A stretch of DNA of 27,890 nucleotides from a virus. The position numbers and the translations under genes were made by a program. Shown in pieces: positions 7,212 to 24,473 of this stretch. The DNA lies in the IMG/VR virus record IMGVR_UViG_3300022920_000030, positions 1 to 27,890 of that record, one strand, 5' to 3'. Each line of letters opens with the position of its first letter. Position 1 is the first letter of the stretch. Below the pieces are notes generated by a model. The model was not told the DNA's origin, did no database searches, and saw nothing but the letters and a program-made list of their open reading frames with translations.

Positions 7212-8441
7212 TTAACCATCGTTACCGAAGGCGAAGCTTACAGCGTGACGCACAGCCATATCTACTGACTGCAAAGCAACCAGGCGGATAGTGCCGCTCT
7301 TAGACATAGTATATGGATCAACAGTAAGATCAAGTCCACCAAACATACCGATCAGCAGGTCATCAAAGTTACCAAAGTAAAGGTTTCCGGCAGTAGCCTG
7401 ATTGGAAACGATACCACGATAGCCGTTGATGCTTCCGCCTGGTTCTACAACAAACTGAGCAGTTCCAGAGGCTTTCTCAGTAGTCTTTAGAGCGCCGTAC
7501 ATGGAAGCAGGCATGATGTAAGACAGGTTGCCCAAAAGAGCGTTGTCTTCTGCAACAGCAGTCTCCAAGCTAACAACTTCAGCAAAAGTAGGGTTAGCGG
7601 CAGCAAAGGCAGTTACAGTGTTAACACCAGTAGTGTTTAAAATGCCAGTAGGCTGACCAGAAGAACCAGTGCCTTCCAGACCTGCTTTGTCGATTGCGAT
7701 AGCAAGAGCGCGGCTCAAGTCATCACGGATCAGACCTTCAACGTCTAGGCTAGACTGAATCAAAAGCTGGCGAGTAACGTCAGTGAATGCACCGAGAGTC
7801 TTAGGAGCCAAAGACACCTGACCTACAGTCATTTCGCTTTCAGTTGCGTCACCACCTTCAGTGCCAATCCAAGCGGCAGTAGAAGCAGCAGTTTTCTTAG
7901 GAATCTTAACGTCACCGCTAAGTCCGCCCAGCATACGAGCGCCAGCTTGCATTACAGAAGACTGGTTGCGAAGTGCGTCAATGAAGTCACCGCCACGGAA
8001 GTCATCACTGAACAAAGCAGAGTCATCACCGCTGTTCATGTCACGCTTCCAAGTACGCAGAACTTCAGCAGGAAGCATAATGCCCTGTGCAGTTGTTCCG
8101 TACTGGTCAGCCGCAGCTCGTGAACACTCAAACTCAAACGCAGCAGCTTCTTGAGCGCGGCGATCAGTTGGGTTAGCAAGAGCGTTTACGGCACGGGCCA
8201 GGCTAAACTTCTTAACTTCTTGATTGGTCATTCCCACTTCCTGATCTTCTAGGGCGCGCTGTGAACCAATGTTTTCTAGTAACTCACCACGGAACTCTTC
8301 GATGCTACGGCCTTCAGCAATTGCCTTACGAGCCATTTCACCTTGGTTGTGACGAGAGCCTAACTCAACAATCTGAGCGGCGTTACGTTGTGCGGTTTGC
8401 TGTGCTTCAGCCTTGACCGCTTCAATATCAACTTCTGACAT
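7212..8441 (-). CDS. Major capsid protein from an internal in-frame start
   Basis: Within the fusion gene, the ATG at 8441 (MSEVDIEAVKAEAQQ) is preceded by GAGGA with a 7-base spacer, a better RBS than that of the full-length gene. Translation from here gives 409 residues: a delta-like helical region (about 1-110, rich in Glu, Arg and Ala), then the HK97-fold capsid body. That matches the usual length of an unfused capsid precursor. Capsid protein is needed in hundreds of copies and protease in few, so two starts in one frame would supply both. A second internal ATG at 9095 (MDNEVEVEEV, with GAGG eight bases upstream) could give a protease form without the N-terminal domain. Use of these starts is inference. 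Confidence 0.55.
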   Translation of the reverse strand: MSEVDIEAVKAEAQQTAQRNAAQIVELGSRHNQGEMARKAIAEGRSIEEFRGELLENIGSQRALEDQEVGMTNQEVKKFSLARAVNALANPTDRRAQEAAAFEFECSRAAADQYGTTAQGIMLPAEVLRTWKRDMNSGDDSALFSDDFRGGDFIDALRNQSSVMQAGARMLGGLSGDVKIPKKTAASTAAWIGTEGGDATESEMTVGQVSLAPKTLGAFTDVTRQLLIQSSLDVEGLIRDDLSRALAIAIDKAGLEGTGSSGQPTGILNTTGVNTVTAFAAANPTFAEVVSLETAVAEDNALLGNLSYIMPASMYGALKTTEKASGTAQFVVEPGGSINGYRGIVSNQATAGNLYFGNFDDLLIGMFGGLDLTVDPYTMSKSGTIRLVALQSVDMAVRHAVSFAFGNDG

Positions 8442-9458
8442 AGTATTTTCCTCAACAAATGAAGTTTTGATTACGGGTTTGTTTGAAGGTTCGCTCGACC
8501 GTCCAACGCCAACTGTCATATCGGCAGGTATAGACACCAAACTTGCTTCCACGGGCTTCCATGACGTTGCACGATATGTGTTTTTGTCATTTCTATCCCG
8601 GTCCATCTTGCCGATAGAGTAGCCAACAGAAATGTTAGCCTTAATTCCATCAACAACATCAGAGAATGCCTCACGAGCCAACTCGCCTTTTCCAAAGCGA
8701 ACTTTAGCGCGCAGTCTACGCGCTTGCCCATCAAGTTCTACCGATTCTACAACGCCAATCTGCTTCTCTGGATCGTGATCCAAAAGCAAAGGCGCTCGAC
8801 CACTAGACAGGAAAGACAAATCAATTGCCTTTGAGTCATGGTCTAATATTTCGCTACCAAAAGATCGCTCTACCGGCTCTTCGCTAGATATGGCGATTCT
8901 TACGGTTCTCTTATCCTCATCGATTGGAGACATATCCATCTCCATCGCTCTATGCTGTACTTCTACAACCTGACGCTCTTCGATTTCTGCCTGAACTTCT
9001 TCTGCAACTTCCTTAGCGGGCTGCTCAACAACCTCTTCAGAACGCTCTTCATCAGCGGATACGACAACCTCTTCTACTTCAACTTCGTTGTCCATTTTTA
9101 CAGCCTCTTCATCTCTGTCATCACTAATTTGCCCCGCAATTTTGCGCGACCACGAAAATCCAGCATCTCCACCCCACAAAGCCCAAGCTATTCTGCCAGC
9201 AGAAGGATAACCCTCTTCTCCAGGGCTAAACCCCTCGGCTTTTTTGTCTACTTCATGCCGAGAGAAAAACGAATACATTCTCTTAACAGTACTGAAAGAC
9301 AACTCTTTGCGGTTCTGTATATCTCTAGCACGGGCTACACCAACTTCTGTGCCACCTCTACCATGCTCTTTACGCCAAGCTAATCCCTTCTTAGCCTCTG
9401 AAACCATGCCATCAGTCGGACGGGTGTTTATGTCTTTACCCTTGTACTTCGGCATCAT
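7212..9458 (-). CDS. Head maturation protease fused to major capsid protein
   Basis: Three parts are fused in one frame of 748 residues (numbered from the ATG at 9458; TTG/GTG codons just upstream are less likely starts). Residues 1-110 are a domain often seen before phage proteases (KGLAWRKEHGRGGTEVGVAR, YPSAGRIAWALWGGDAGFSW). Residues 112-175 are a strongly acidic linker. Residues 182-320 are a prohead protease of the HK97 type: LLLDHDPEKQIGVVESVEL with His228, and ANISVGYSI with Ser277 as likely catalytic residues. From residue 340 a helical, charged scaffold-like segment leads into an HK97-fold capsid protein (QGIMLPAEVLRTWKRDM; SLAPKTLGAFTDVTRQLL; end VDMAVRHAVSFAFGNDG). It overlaps the portal gene end. 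An internal RBS before residue 340 suggests separate capsid synthesis. Confidence 0.9.
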   Translation of the reverse strand: MMPKYKGKDINTRPTDGMVSEAKKGLAWRKEHGRGGTEVGVARARDIQNRKELSFSTVKRMYSFFSRHEVDKKAEGFSPGEEGYPSAGRIAWALWGGDAGFSWSRKIAGQISDDRDEEAVKMDNEVEVEEVVVSADEERSEEVVEQPAKEVAEEVQAEIEERQVVEVQHRAMEMDMSPIDEDKRTVRIAISSEEPVERSFGSEILDHDSKAIDLSFLSSGRAPLLLDHDPEKQIGVVESVELDGQARRLRAKVRFGKGELAREAFSDVVDGIKANISVGYSIGKMDRDRNDKNTYRATSWKPVEASLVSIPADMTVGVGRSSEPSNKPVIKTSFVEENTMSEVDIEAVKAEAQQTAQRNAAQIVELGSRHNQGEMARKAIAEGRSIEEFRGELLENIGSQRALEDQEVGMTNQEVKKFSLARAVNALANPTDRRAQEAAAFEFECSRAAADQYGTTAQGIMLPAEVLRTWKRDMNSGDDSALFSDDFRGGDFIDALRNQSSVMQAGARMLGGLSGDVKIPKKTAASTAAWIGTEGGDATESEMTVGQVSLAPKTLGAFTDVTRQLLIQSSLDVEGLIRDDLSRALAIAIDKAGLEGTGSSGQPTGILNTTGVNTVTAFAAANPTFAEVVSLETAVAEDNALLGNLSYIMPASMYGALKTTEKASGTAQFVVEPGGSINGYRGIVSNQATAGNLYFGNFDDLLIGMFGGLDLTVDPYTMSKSGTIRLVALQSVDMAVRHAVSFAFGNDG

Positions 9459-10929
9459 CTTCACCAATTATATCAGGATTAACAGCATTAAAGTTTGCAC
9501 CAAACGGCTCAAGCGCGTACTTGATTCCAAACTGTTCGGCAGTGTCTTTGTCTCTAGCAATTTGTGACACTAACTCTTCAACATCCTTACCGTACTGCGA
9601 GGCAACGTCCTGAAGGCTCAGAATGCCGTTTTTAAGGCCGTTTACAGCGGCGGCCATCTCTTTCTGTGGGTCAACCCATGACCAGGCTCTGCCGCGAAAC
9701 TGAGCCGCTGTGTAGAATCGATCAAACTGTCTAACAGGAATGCCAAACGTGTTCAATTCCATTGCGCTACCTAACCAGCTACTAAATATCGGACACACAA
9801 AGTGATCGACCATAAACTGCTGTAGGTTTTTGTAGTTATCCCTCTCCTCTAGCGCGCCCTGCCTAATAGAACTGTAGCTTGTAGCCTCAAGATCACCAGA
9901 CAATGTTGGATAGCCAACCCCCATAGCCACAGAAATGCCGCGTAAGACTGACTTATGGAAGGGGTCAAACTCATTGTTCGGGTATTGCGGGTCAAAGGAC
10001 TTAAAATCTACTCCGCTTGGAAGCTGATGAAACGTACCTGGACTAGCGTCCATGATAGGCATATTGCCATCAAGTTCGTCTGCAACAAAACCATCGCCAC
10101 TCGGAGAAGTGAAAAATCCCATTTTAGATGCACCAATACGGGCATTTACAATTGCCGCCTCCCTTAGAGCGCCTAACTGCTTTAAAGCAGAGATACTAGA
10201 CGATAACCAAGGCTCTCCCCTAGTTTGACCGGCTCTGTTAGCCTTAAACAAGTGAATAACTCTGTCAGCAGTGATTCTAATGTGTTTTGCGGACTTACCA
10301 GTTGTTGTGTAGTCGTAATCACCAGGATGATAGCTTAATACATGATATGCAACAGGCTTTTTGAACTTATCTAATTCAACGCCCATGCGAATCTCATTTC
10401 CGTTAGTCAAACGCTCGTTTTTTTGCTCATCAACTTGATCTGGCTCAATAAACTCAAGAGAAAACGAATCTTTAAACGATGCTCCTCGATGTTTAATAAT
10501 AAATACTTCGCCATCACGGGCTAAACACTCAATCGCAAGCTTTTGAGCGTCAATCCAGGTCATTTTACCGTCTACAGTGCAATTTCCGAGCATACCCCAC
10601 GACTTAAACGCAGTTTCTACTCGCTGATTGCCGTCTGTATCTAGTTTACCAACAGAATCGTAAGCCTTGCTTTGTATGTTAAATCCCTTATCACCGACAA
10701 CATTGTTGCGTAATAAATCTAGATATCTGCGAACGTACTCGTTATTTCTTGCTAAATCTCTCGACCTAGCCCGCAAATTACGCAGTGCAGGTCTTAATTC
10801 TGTATCTGCGCTAGACTCTGAAGGCTTAAAGTCGCTAAACAGATACCCTTGGTTGTTTGCCGCATAAGCCCGCTTAAATATCTTGGTCTTAGGCTCTTTC
10901 TTCGGCTTAAATCGATCAAAAATACCCAT
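9436..10929 (-). CDS. Portal protein, lambda type
   Basis: This 497-residue protein has the lambda-family portal pattern: RPALRNLRARSRDLARNNEY near residue 47, then VRRYLDLLRNNVVGDKGFNI, FIEPDQVDEQKNERL, VIHLFKANRAGQTRGEPWLS, and TLSGDLEATSYSSIRQGALE near 345-365. Twelve copies form the ring at the unique head vertex through which DNA is packaged and to which the tail attaches. It is preceded immediately by the gpW-like gene (adjacent stop TAA and ATG) and its 3' end overlaps the protease-capsid gene. Length and order (terL, gpW, portal, protease) match the lambda packaging-head block. Confidence 0.93.
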   Translation of the reverse strand: MGIFDRFKPKKEPKTKIFKRAYAANNQGYLFSDFKPSESSADTELRPALRNLRARSRDLARNNEYVRRYLDLLRNNVVGDKGFNIQSKAYDSVGKLDTDGNQRVETAFKSWGMLGNCTVDGKMTWIDAQKLAIECLARDGEVFIIKHRGASFKDSFSLEFIEPDQVDEQKNERLTNGNEIRMGVELDKFKKPVAYHVLSYHPGDYDYTTTGKSAKHIRITADRVIHLFKANRAGQTRGEPWLSSSISALKQLGALREAAIVNARIGASKMGFFTSPSGDGFVADELDGNMPIMDASPGTFHQLPSGVDFKSFDPQYPNNEFDPFHKSVLRGISVAMGVGYPTLSGDLEATSYSSIRQGALEERDNYKNLQQFMVDHFVCPIFSSWLGSAMELNTFGIPVRQFDRFYTAAQFRGRAWSWVDPQKEMAAAVNGLKNGILSLQDVASQYGKDVEELVSQIARDKDTAEQFGIKYALEPFGANFNAVNPDIIGEDDAEVQG

Positions 10930-11525: not shown

Positions 11526-13379
11526 TTAACGCCAAGAATTAACAAATCCTTTGCCCGTTTTAGGAACAAAGGAGTTTCCTTTAGGTTTAGCCTTTTTCTC
11601 TGCCGGTTCAACGCTTCCATTCATGTCACGCTTATCTGCAAGAGAGTTAATATCAATATTCAGTATTGCGTATGCTGCAAGTGCGTATACGAAACAATCT
11701 AATGCCTCATTACGCGCCCTAATTTTCTGGAATACTCTTTTCTTATATCCTCTAGAAAACTTGGTAACAATCTTTTCTGCGGTAAGCTGCCTAAAGTATT
11801 CATCATTCAAGTCATCGTGAAAATGAATGTAGCCAGGACCTTCATCCTTAATTCTCATTCGAGCAAACAAAAGGTCTTTTACCGTATCAACACCAATCGG
11901 GAATAATAAGCATTTGCCGATATTGTTTTTTGATGGCCGACCAGCTATCGCCTTGCCTTCACCACCAACACCCTTAATCGCAAAAACCCGTCTAGCGTAG
12001 TTTTTCTTAGCATAGGAGTATACCGTATTTGTGAAGTGTCCACCAGAGTCCACACAGGTAGCCCGTATAGGCAATTGCCTGCCATCATTAGTCAAATATG
12101 TTGTGAATAATCGAGTGTCTAAGGATGTCCATAATTGCGGCGTAGAGGGATCGCCATACAAAACTTGGTGATCAATTACCCATGACTCATCATCTCTTCC
12201 CCACCCGATTATGCTCATCTCTAATCGATCATCCTGCACATCAACTCCGCAGGTTAAGAATATTACTTCTTCAGGGATTCCATCACCATAAGCTTCTCTT
12301 CTTTGTGCTAAAGAATAATCATCGATAGTTTCTCCCTGGTCCTCCCAGGTTTCGCCTAGATAAGTATTTGTCCAAACTCTTAACTGCTCTGGGTTTTTCC
12401 TCATCGCTAAAAAGTCTCTCACTCCATCGGATAATGGTGTCCAGGGTGAGTAAAGACCAGAGATAGAAAACCCTGCAATCCCAGCAAACGGATTATCTGC
12501 AATCCACTGCCCATTTCGTATTCCCCACCGGCGATCAGAGTCAGACCAAACCACAGAACAATGCTCACACATGTAACCAGCAGTCTCAGGATCACTGTCT
12601 ACCCATCGGACGTTTGCCCACTTTAACTTCTGCATGTGTCCGCAGTGTTTACACGGAACCTGATAGAAACGCATGTCAGATGCCTCGAACGCTTCCTCAA
12701 TTCTGCTGGCATCTTTGTTAGTCGGAGTAGACACCATGACAATCTTACGGTTCCAGAATGTTGCCGCTCGTTTGCGCGCTAACTGGATAGGGTCACCCTC
12801 TGATCCAGCACTAGCAGGATATCTATCAACCTCATCACATAGGACCAGGCGAATAGGTCTAGATGCCAAACCTGAAGGGCTGTTGGCTCCTACTAGAGTA
12901 AGGCTTCCGCCTGGAAAGAGTTTGTGTAAAGTTGTGTTTCCGCTGTCTCTTGCGCGAGGGTCTTTGACCTTACCTCGTAAGCAGGGAGTAGACTTGAGCA
13001 GTCCGTTAGCAACTCGATCCTTTGAGAACGACTGAGCCATCTCCAGAGTAGGCTGCAAACAAAGTATCGGAGAAGGGTCATTATCGATGTGGTAACCAAT
13101 GATATTTAAGATGGCCTCAGACTTACCTAACTGAGCGCCTGCCATCACAACGACTTCTCTTATCTCTGGATCGGCACAGGCATCCATTATCCCTCTTTGA
13201 TATTCAGCGCGACTTGTATGCCACTTTCCTGGCTCACTACTTGTCTGAGAATCCAACCGTCTTCTTTGGTCTGCCCACTCGCTTACGCTTAGTCTTGGCG
13301 GCGGCTTCAGGCCCGCTATCGCTTTCGTCAGGTGTAGCACTAGGTCCGCTGGTAGATGCGGGATCGATTGTTGGCTCAT
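11526..13379 (-). CDS. Terminase large subunit, GpA family
   Basis: This 617-residue packaging motor follows terS. The ATPase half has LSVSEWADQRRRL near residue 30, a Walker-A-type loop (MAGAQLGKSEA, about 79-89), a Walker B (IRLVLCDEVDRY, about 176-187) and a coupling-type motif (MVSTPTNKDASR). A zinc-binding pair (Cys243, Cys246, Cys271, Cys274) separates it from the nuclease half, which has an early acidic motif (TCGVDVQDDRLE, Asp380), CVDSGGH and a late EALDCFVYALAAY. This family cuts and packages concatemers, commonly at cos sites. Its start lies 143 bases inside terS in another frame, with GGAAGAG about 10 bases upstream of the ATG. Confidence 0.95.
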   Translation of the reverse strand: MSQQSIPHLPADLVLHLTKAIAGLKPPPRLSVSEWADQRRRLDSQTSSEPGKWHTSRAEYQRGIMDACADPEIREVVVMAGAQLGKSEAILNIIGYHIDNDPSPILCLQPTLEMAQSFSKDRVANGLLKSTPCLRGKVKDPRARDSGNTTLHKLFPGGSLTLVGANSPSGLASRPIRLVLCDEVDRYPASAGSEGDPIQLARKRAATFWNRKIVMVSTPTNKDASRIEEAFEASDMRFYQVPCKHCGHMQKLKWANVRWVDSDPETAGYMCEHCSVVWSDSDRRWGIRNGQWIADNPFAGIAGFSISGLYSPWTPLSDGVRDFLAMRKNPEQLRVWTNTYLGETWEDQGETIDDYSLAQRREAYGDGIPEEVIFLTCGVDVQDDRLEMSIIGWGRDDESWVIDHQVLYGDPSTPQLWTSLDTRLFTTYLTNDGRQLPIRATCVDSGGHFTNTVYSYAKKNYARRVFAIKGVGGEGKAIAGRPSKNNIGKCLLFPIGVDTVKDLLFARMRIKDEGPGYIHFHDDLNDEYFRQLTAEKIVTKFSRGYKKRVFQKIRARNEALDCFVYALAAYAILNIDINSLADKRDMNGSVEPAEKKAKPKGNSFVPKTGKGFVNSWR

Positions 13380-22580: not shown

Positions 22581-22785
22581 TGGGCATACTCCACTTAGCG
22601 ACTTTTACTTTCTCACCATATCGATTACTAACCTCAACCATATCGGTAACTATGGAATGCCCTTGCGATCTCAATTCACTAATCCGTGCAGGCGCTTCTA
22701 GTATCCCAAGTTCATCCCAACAATTTAGTCTGGTCAGTTCTTTCCCTTCATTTAAGTAATTTAGGATTCTTTCTCTTTGTGTCAT
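22570..22785 (-). CDS. Winged-helix DNA-binding protein
   Basis: The best start is the ATG at 22785 with AGGAG 7 bases upstream, giving 71 residues. A longer frame to 22839 has no RBS and overlaps the small upstream gene more. The sequence MTQRERILNYLNEGKELTRL, NCWDELGILEAPARISELRS, QGHSIVTDMVEVSNRYGEKV has the three-helix plus beta-wing layout of the short phage helix-turn-helix family. It could recognise a replication origin or an operator. It overlaps the next gene by 11 bases. Confidence 0.75.
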   Translation of the reverse strand: MTQRERILNYLNEGKELTRLNCWDELGILEAPARISELRSQGHSIVTDMVEVSNRYGEKVKVAKWSMPNDS

Positions 22786-22885
22786 TTTTCTTCTCCTGTG
22801 GTTTTTTATCTTTGCTAAATATTGCATCAAAGTTTGCATCGAATGCGGCCTTATTTGTTGGCCTTTGTTTACTGCCCTTGCTCAT
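22748..22885 (-). CDS. Tiny basic phage protein
   Basis: This 45-residue ORF starts 17 bases inside the methyltransferase gene and ends 38 bases inside the winged-helix gene, both in other frames. It reads MSKGSKQRPTNKAAFDANFD, AIFSKDKKPQEKKNDTKRKN and PKLLK. The beginning is of a type I know from many phages as a short conserved hypothetical ('MSKGSKQRP...F..NfD.IF'). The RBS is weak (an AGG about 8 bases upstream). Function unknown. Confidence 0.55.
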   Translation of the reverse strand: MSKGSKQRPTNKAAFDANFDAIFSKDKKPQEKKNDTKRKNPKLLK

Positions 22886-24038
22886 TTTTATACCTATTGC
22901 TTAAAGTTATCCATGCTTTCGCAGCAGTCTTTGGCAGGACCGCATTACCTAAAAGTCTAATTCTGTCCACCCTGTCGGGACACCCATCAACCACTCTACC
23001 CACGTTGGGTTCAGTTGGCCACGAGGCATCGATTCTTCTTTCGCCTCCGCTGACAGGTAGTATTTCTTTTTTTGGTGAGCGTGGCTCTTGCTCCCCACTG
23101 GGCCACAATCCTTGTACTCTGAGGCTCTCGGTGTCGGCCAATTCCTCACCGCTCCCCCCAATGTAGTTCCTGACTTCGGGTTCTTGTATTGACCCGCAAC
23201 CTGGACGTTGTCTTGGGTTGTCGGTGTCGGCCACATTGTCTCCGCCGTCTCCACCGCATCCTTCAGCTTCGCTCCGTACCAAGGGCTGTCCTGATCCTTG
23301 CTGTGTTTCGATCTCCACTTCCCGTTCACCAATGCCGTGGGATACCCTCCTCCCGTCACATCGAACACTGTCGCTGTCGGCCACTCCCCTTGATAAATCT
23401 GCATCGCCACTGGGTCTACTTGCTCTCTCAGATTTGAGGGCCTGGTCCTGCCCTTGCGTACAGTTTGAGATTGTCTTATCAATGTCTCTGGGCTTTTCGC
23501 GGTCAGATGATCCATCGTGTTCGGCGTTGCCCATGATAAAGACTCGCTTTCTTTGGTGAGGAGCGCCGACTTCACGCGCTGAGAATATTCCCCACGTTGA
23601 TCGATAACCATCTTCTTCCAGATCGCTGATGACGCTTGAGAGTCCAAGCGAGATGTGTCCTTCGACATTTTCAAAGAAGCATTGAAGAGGTCTAATTGAT
23701 TGCAAGTGCCTCCTAATGAACGGCCAGAGATGTCTTGGATCGTCTGCGCCTTTTCTGCTACCGGCTTTACTGAACGGTTGACAAGGATAGCCTCCAGTAA
23801 CAATGTCAACTCTGTCTCGAAAGATTTCCGCTGGGAAGGAAGTAATATCCGTGTATACAGGTGCGGGAGGTATGAGTCCTCTTTCCATCTTGTTAACCAG
23901 GTTCGCAATGGCGAAGGCTTCGATCTCCAGAAAAGCGATGACTCTATGTTCAACCCCTGCAAGGTCAAGTCCTCTTTCGATTCCACCATATCCTGAGCAA
24001 AAGCTGATGACAGTTGGTAATTCTTTGGTAATATCCAC
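22869..24038 (-). CDS. dcm: C5-cytosine DNA methyltransferase
   Basis: The 389-residue protein has the C5-methyltransferase motifs in order: I (VISFCSGYGGIERGLDLAG, residues 10-28), IV with the nucleophile (GGYPCQPFS, Cys86), VI (FFENVEG, 122-127), VIII (HQRKRVF, 161-167) and IX/X (RVDRIRLLGNAVLP, about 355-370). Between VIII and IX, where the target-recognition domain lies, is a long charged Gly/Ser-rich insert with recurring ADxDS-like sequences (GVADSDSVRCDG, NVADTDNPRQ, ELADTESL). It starts with GTG, 7 bases after AGGAG; an ATG two bases earlier opens a second long frame. Methylation could protect phage DNA from restriction or alter expression. The target site is unknown. Confidence 0.93.
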   Translation of the reverse strand: MDITKELPTVISFCSGYGGIERGLDLAGVEHRVIAFLEIEAFAIANLVNKMERGLIPPAPVYTDITSFPAEIFRDRVDIVTGGYPCQPFSKAGSRKGADDPRHLWPFIRRHLQSIRPLQCFFENVEGHISLGLSSVISDLEEDGYRSTWGIFSAREVGAPHQRKRVFIMGNAEHDGSSDREKPRDIDKTISNCTQGQDQALKSERASRPSGDADLSRGVADSDSVRCDGRRVSHGIGEREVEIETQQGSGQPLVRSEAEGCGGDGGDNVADTDNPRQRPGCGSIQEPEVRNYIGGSGEELADTESLRVQGLWPSGEQEPRSPKKEILPVSGGERRIDASWPTEPNVGRVVDGCPDRVDRIRLLGNAVLPKTAAKAWITLSNRYKNEQGQ

Positions 24039-24040
24039 AT
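22949..24040 (-). CDS. Alternate-frame protein inside the methyltransferase gene
   Basis: A second frame of 363 codons begins at the ATG at 24040, two bases before the methyltransferase GTG, with the same RBS (AGGAG, 5 bases away). Residues 1-110 look arbitrary; from about 120 it carries the sequence style of a known phage hypothetical family: LFNASLKMSKDTSRLDSQ, SLSWATPNTMDHLTAKSP, VRKGRTRPSNLREQVDP, W-P-T-x repeats at about 170, 220, 270 and 301, and a C-terminal LNPTWVEWLMGVPTGWTE (343-360). That ending occurs in phage proteins next to methyltransferases. It might be a true second product, an ancient overprint or a chance consequence of the first frame. Confidence 0.4.
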   Translation of the reverse strand: MWILPKNYQLSSAFAQDMVESKEDLTLQGLNIESSLFWRSKPSPLRTWLTRWKEDSYLPHLYTRILLPSQRKSFETELTLLLEAILVNRSVKPVAEKAQTIQDISGRSLGGTCNQLDLFNASLKMSKDTSRLDSQASSAIWKKMVIDQRGEYSQRVKSALLTKESESLSWATPNTMDHLTAKSPETLIRQSQTVRKGRTRPSNLREQVDPVAMQIYQGEWPTATVFDVTGGGYPTALVNGKWRSKHSKDQDSPWYGAKLKDAVETAETMWPTPTTQDNVQVAGQYKNPKSGTTLGGAVRNWPTPRASEYKDCGPVGSKSHAHQKKKYYLSAEAKEESMPRGQLNPTWVEWLMGVPTGWTELDF

Positions 24041-24473
24041 TCTATCTCCTATGGCTCGGCAAGCCTCGCTCTACAAAATAATTAATATATTATATTTTTA
24101 TATATAAGTTACTTTTTTAAAGACATCCGAACCCTTTATACTCAAGAGCATAATTAAAAAATCTAAGGGCAAAAAGCAACTTAGTGACTGAGCCGTATTC
24201 GTATTTAGAATCATGTGCCGTACCTGGCCATCGTTATTCCCCACTCGGCAGTCAAACCGATTGGAGGGTGCTAATAGAGGGGTCACTCTCGTTCGTGGGT
24301 TATTAATTCCCAGTCCACACACCCGAATACTGCGAAAGAAAAGTAGATATTGGACAGTAAAAGATACTACAGGACGTAGATATACTGTGTTAAACTCACC
24401 TTTCTTGTTGATCGCACAGCGAGTATGGCTTTTCTCAATGCCAAAGTAAAGCCCCCGAAAGGGGGTTTTGTTT
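24041..24473. other. Region between methyltransferase and regulator
   Basis: About 430 bases without a minus-strand gene. The part next to the methyltransferase (24080-24120) is nearly all A/T and includes minus-strand TATAAT, so a promoter there is possible. The rest is of ordinary composition with an imperfect inverted repeat (TGACTG..CCG near 24184 and CGGCAGTCA near 24226). It contains a plus-strand ORF and ends in a plus-strand terminator. Confidence 0.5.
24213..24449 (+). CDS. Possible plus-strand gene, 78 residues
   Basis: This would be the only plus-strand gene in the window. Its stop codon is directly followed by a rho-independent terminator of the same orientation. The basic protein reads TWPSLFPTRQSNRLEGANRG, VTLVRGLLIPSPHTRILRKK, SRYWTVKDTTGRRYTVLNS, PFLLIAQRVWLFSMPK; the last half looks like an ordinary beta-rich small protein. 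No RBS precedes the ATG and no clear promoter was found (TATACT near 24137 with a poor -35 is the best). It may instead be an RNA or a start further in. I do not recognise a family. Confidence 0.35.
   Translation: MCRTWPSLFPTRQSNRLEGANRGVTLVRGLLIPSPHTRILRKKSRYWTVKDTTGRRYTVLNSPFLLIAQRVWLFSMPK

Follow-up and report, generated by a model that had tools for sequence, protein, structure and literature searches.

Monomeric C5 cytosine methyltransferases carry their motifs in the order I–VIII, a target-recognition region, IX, and X. In M.EcoHK31I (YGGCCR), a β-subunit is read in an alternative frame within the gene for the α-subunit. The larger subunit of this enzyme contains motifs I–VIII and X and the smaller one motif IX, the 2 have been found by experiment to be separate polypeptides, and the recognition domain has been assigned to the larger of them (PMC3404938). 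M.AquI is likewise a split enzyme, with motifs I–VIII in its larger subunit and motifs IX–X in its smaller one (PMC3404938). Within the literature searched, no published description of an overlapping phage C5 methyltransferase was found. A paper on P. larvae phages lists both frames of such a pair as methyltransferases, and no remark on the overlap was found in the searched passages. Here, we describe a locus that very probably encodes a C5 methyltransferase that is heterodimeric in the manner of M.EcoHK31I, with its subunits in 2 frames of the same strand.

Layout of the two frames and their start site

The window, by which we mean the whole stretch of 27,890 nucleotides that was analyzed (IMGVR_UViG_3300022920_000030, 27.9 kb), contains genes for a tail fibre, tape measure, portal, large terminase, exonuclease, and Erf, indicating that it belongs to a tailed phage. 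In the ORF listing, frame A, for the putative α-subunit, spans 22869–24038 on the minus strand, with a GTG start and 389 amino acids, and frame B, for the putative β-subunit, spans 22949–24040 on the same strand, with an ATG start and 363 amino acids. The overlap covers the whole length of B, a stretch of 1,089 bases in which nearly each base is used by 2 proteins.

The 2 starts are joined in an ATGTG (24036–24040, minus strand), where the β ATG (24038–24040) and the α GTG (24036–24038) have one base in common. A Shine-Dalgarno (SD)-like AGGAG, read from the sequence at 24046–24050 on the minus strand, lies 5 nt from the ATG and 7 nt from the GTG. A sequence-only reading of this DNA had already described frames of 363 and 389 codons leaving one ATGTG behind one ribosome-binding site; the ORFs and the AGGAG are as it described them, and the peptides it quoted occur in the translations. 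No alternative start for frame A was found upstream of motif I within the window. The NTGTG is conserved: of 88 loci, 84 start with ATGTGG, 2 with GTGTGG, and 2 with TTGTGG, and an SD-like 4-mer is present in 85. Because B starts 2 bases upstream of A, the wobble base of each A codon is the second codon base of B, so that a change silent in A almost always replaces a residue in B.

A small ORF, MSKGSKQRPTNKAAFDANFDAIFSK (22753–22885, minus strand), begins within the end of the α gene and extends into the gene that follows it (phrog_4973, ATG at 22785), and a similar small ORF lies downstream of the methyltransferase in the related loci L024, L026, and L030. Long ORFs also lie antisense to the gene that follows the portal gene (7212–9467; ORF at 8952–9383, plus strand) and to the large terminase gene (ORF at 12673–13035, plus strand).

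Coding in both frames

Homologous loci were collected by scanning viral contigs with B and, separately, with A. In the loci from these scans, including homologues retrieved with A alone, B was open in the same phase and at essentially full length, down to approximately 44% identity in A. Stops were counted in the overlap region of 59 representative loci with less than 88% nucleotide identity: neither A nor B contained any, while the third sense frame contained 1,199 and the antisense frames 513 to 1,071. When synonymous codons of A were permuted, approximately 404 B stops were expected across these loci, against the 0 observed. For the window alone, such permutation gave a mean of 11.1 B stops and not one stop-free B frame in 500 permutations, in agreement with the earlier remark that an alternate frame of this length is unlikely by chance.

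A second test compared third bases, pairwise, at fourfold-degenerate A codons for the same amino acid. These sites differed in 23% of pairs within the overlap versus 57% past the B stop (permutation p = 5e-5). Along A, the difference was 19% at codons 2–40, 22% at codons 41–75, 20% at codons 111–175, and 17% at codons 176–340; it reached 43% over the catalytic loop, where the constraint from β is weakest, and fell to 3% over motif IX of B, the last conserved block of that frame. A control was provided by relatives with a nested β, which starts at an ATG of its own approximately 50 to 60 codons into α, mostly with its own SD and without an ATGTG. Their third-position identity was 0.33–0.40 across the first 60 A codons, where there is no B, 0.53–0.74 in the best conserved parts of β, and 0.36 after β. 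Together, the third-base data and this control indicate that selection also acts on residues 1–75 of B in the window class.

In the insert (codon 176 onwards), A has a dNN/dSN of 0.89 and B a dNN/dNS of 0.59, the latter ratio being pushed below 1 by codon position and therefore not used alone; the argument is carried by the stop, third-base, and control tests. B is constrained more than A there and dominates, with A nearly unconstrained except for staying open, which fits a disordered linker in this part of A. On these sequence comparisons B is coding, as it has no stops where approximately 404 are expected and the fourfold sites of A are conserved only up to the B stop. The stop counts and third-base conservation thus support the dual coding that had been proposed from the sequence, and the alternate frame is uninterrupted in homologues, shows purifying selection, and has independent family matches. 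The dual coding is not restricted to the target-recognition insert, where it had been suggested to be concentrated, but extends all the way from the start codon to the B stop.

Motif distribution in the window and its relatives

The 2 translations were searched separately, and both resemble real families, as had been claimed. Frame A (α, 22869–24038, minus strand) matched PF00145 (E = 1.3e-32) at residues 9–177 only and phrog_363 at residues 7–377. It contains motifs I–VIII and X, including the catalytic PCQPF of motif IV (residues 85–89; 23772–23786, minus strand), which is invariant across 52 sequences, and the motif VIII region GAPHQRKRVF (residues 158–167; 23538–23567, minus strand). Motifs I–VIII with the catalytic PCQ, as in PF00145, are therefore present in α, but the full PF00145 set does not stand in one chain, motif IX being in frame B. 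Motif X itself, LLGNAVLP (residues 362–369; 22932–22955, minus strand), lies at and just beyond the β end, and the segment before it, TEPNVGRVVDGCPDRVDRI (residues 342–360; 22959–23015, minus strand), is read from the same bases as motif IX of β. An AlphaFold2 model of α was confident at residues 1–175 and 369–388, including a helix after motif X from residue 369 (pLDDT approximately 95), and disordered at approximately 180–365 (pLDDT 32–50), without a folded small domain. The top Foldseek match of this model was M.HaeIII (1dct).

Frame B (β, 22949–24040, minus strand; open in 59/59 representatives) matched phrog_1008, which is labelled DNA methyltransferase (E = 2.3e-20, profile positions 36–280 of 329), and had no match in Pfam. 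Its W-P-T-P repeats, at residues approximately 170–330 (23051–23533, minus strand), are read in frame A as ADxDS repeats and are presumed to form the target-recognition part. Near the carboxyl-terminal end lies LNPTWVEWLMGVPTGWT (residues 343–359; 22964–23014, minus strand), which shares 68% identity with LNPDWVEWLMGYPISWT, a block in the single-chain relative L155, on a plasmid of Candidatus Megaera. There, LNPDWVEWLMGYPISWT is in frame A, between motifs VIII and X, in a protein matching PF00145 at 3–322 of 324; HMMER aligned the block to motif IX of M.HhaI, HPRECARVMGYPDSY, with motif X coming next, the second stretch being weak alone but in order. PHROG 1008 in turn holds the repeats, motif IX, and motif X in one protein model, of which B covers positions up to approximately 281 in window-type loci, and A supplies 294–320. 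From the L155 single chain, 6 loci where motif IX is in a B chain together with X, and PHROG 1008, we identify LNPTWVEWLMGVPTGWT, by sequence, as the C5 methyltransferase motif IX. This assignment depends on relatives, since the motif is short and a search of PDB sequences with the B profile returned no methyltransferase and only chance matches, as did one with the L024 β. An AlphaFold2 model of B with 56 homologues had a pLDDT of 50.6 and was for this reason excluded from the fold search, leaving the target-recognition domain without fold backing. Nested β proteins contain nothing that corresponds to residues 1–75 of B. The alternate product had been likened to phage hypothetical proteins found near methyltransferases; it carries motif IX and looks instead like a second subunit of one enzyme with α.

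Motifs could be placed in 128 loci, a tally that also took in L204, where A is interrupted, and L046, a misassignment of the motif scan. Motifs I–VIII and X are in α and IX in β in 118 of them, both window-type and nested, and motifs IX and X are both in α in 2. In 6 others (L024, L026, L030, L139, L195, and L206), α has motifs I–VIII and β has IX and X; frame A stops past motif VIII or inside the insert in these loci, and B continues open beyond the A stop in L024, L139, L195, and L206. The segment before motif X and motif IX, which occupy the same bases in the window, are on separate DNA in L024 and L139, and in L024 they are read in one frame. In an α tree, which is rough given unsettled bootstrap values and some long branches, the full-overlap and nested classes are split with 100/100 on the dividing branches, a few short or long-branched rows excepted, and the location of motif X changed frame at least 2 times. 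Both frames are also conserved in phage C75C1 (35% and 31% identity), where α uses its own ATG 7 bases upstream and β still starts with M-I-I-L-P. Paired overlapping frames occur widely in phages, which is a new point.

Several loci depart from these patterns. In L155 (2068–3090) and L248 (3266–4210), motifs IX and X are in frame A, and a PTP-repeat ORF without motif IX is open in frame B; these loci may represent a third arrangement or degenerate, decaying copies, L248 being without an N-terminus. In L204 (1841–3324), A is broken after motif VIII and motif X lies in a separate frame-A ORF, yet all 468 codons of B are open. In a single contig, L006/L085 (3001–3657), B stops near codon 219 with A running to the contig end, which could be an error or a real loss. 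Finally, frame B of L154 (Paenibacillus polymyxa plasmid pAP1, 1544–2611) contains LNPTWVECLMGFP and then LNPAWVECLMGFP, both motif-IX-like, beside one α, as if the end of β had been duplicated.

A proposed two-subunit enzyme, its alternatives, and known systems

In the proposed enzyme, frame A would supply an α-subunit in which a long stretch of disordered linker joins the AdoMet-binding and catalytic motifs I–VIII to motif X, and frame B a β-subunit with the W-P-T-P part, presumably for target recognition, and motif IX. By analogy with M.EcoHK31I, the 2 would associate into one active enzyme. The common ribosome-binding site would serve both, with initiation either at the ATG for β or 2 bases further at the GTG for α; such two-register initiation is implied by the single SD and the one-base overlap of the starts. 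As suggested by solitary phage methyltransferases in general, the enzyme may methylate the DNA of the phage, probably as a protection from host restriction. Among the window genes that were examined, none was recognized as encoding a restriction enzyme, a difference from M.EcoHK31I.

Other explanations of the paired frames were weighed against this one. B could be a shadow ORF, kept open and similar by the conserved residues and codon bias of A without any B protein; A is indeed conserved, and similar A proteins will yield partly similar B readings. The absence of the roughly 404 expected stops contradicts this, however, as do A wobble positions that are conserved within B and free past its stop and before the nested β starts, and a frame B that outlasts A in L024, L139, L195, and L206, which together make a shadow ORF extremely improbable. 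Programmed ribosomal frameshifting could instead produce a single polypeptide rather than 2 chains: motif IX sits between VIII and X in monomeric enzymes, and a shift from A to B and back to A could restore this chain. We regard this as unlikely, however, given that B has its own conserved start and SD-like site (88 loci), that nested β genes mostly have an SD and ATG of their own, and that M.EcoHK31I consists of 2 polypeptides by experiment (PMC3404938). Moreover, as the pre-X segment of α and motif IX of β share their bases, no single chain could hold both whole.

B could also be a genuine protein that does something else, such as anti-restriction or regulation, and whose LNPxWVEWLMG end merely resembles motif IX. 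In line with this, B is without a Pfam family, a solved relative, or a good model, and its N-terminal 75 residues are without explanation. However, motif IX is absent from frame A throughout the 118 loci of the window and nested types, and it shares a chain with X in L024, L139, L195, and L206 and with I–VIII and X in L155, so that a separate function seems decidedly improbable.

For the heterodimer, we consider it reasonably probable that one ribosome-binding site and two-register initiation at the NTGTG yield both subunits from fully superposed frames in a fixed ratio, with the bases of motif IX also encoding the pre-X segment and with conserved motifs of a universal enzyme fold relocated between frames in the course of evolution. 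Long same-strand overlaps in which both frames are under selection are seldom found and, as a rule, difficult to demonstrate. Because the 2 products resemble parts of a single enzyme whose motif order is known, DNA methylation can serve as an assay for the loss of either frame, and with relatives in which the frames overlap, are partly separated, or form a single chain, it can be traced how the overlap arose. Gene finders mostly keep one frame, so that one subunit is absent or mislabelled in many phage records. Most phage records list one frame; K1G and K1H are annotated with a putative C-specific methylase and an Mte8-like protein, and in Paenibacillus phage Leyra both frames (LEYRA_61/62) are annotated as DNA-cytosine methyltransferase. 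This nested pair has the same phase as the window, with W-P-T-P and motif IX in β and motif X in α, but the window β starts at the ATGTG and not approximately 50 to 60 codons inside α.

Compared with M.AquI, where motif X stands beside IX in the small subunit, the window has motif X in α and 2 genes that overlap almost fully; the M.AquI-type split is found in the relatives L024, L139, L195, and L206. The window agrees more closely in motif split with the published description of M.EcoHK31I, having motifs I–VIII and X in α and, as judged from sequence, IX in β, and in both systems β is encoded in the other frame within α. A tblastn search of plasmids for EcoHK31I-like genes gave 3 distant relatives only. 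Unlike in M.EcoHK31I, the window β is nearly as large as α (363 versus 389 amino acids), is superposed on it from the start codon through the common ATGTG, and has an extra N-terminal part of approximately 75 residues under selection; the recognition part would lie in β instead of the larger subunit. The motif split itself was thus already known from M.EcoHK31I, while the full overlap, the common NTGTG start, and the exchange of motifs between frames are new.
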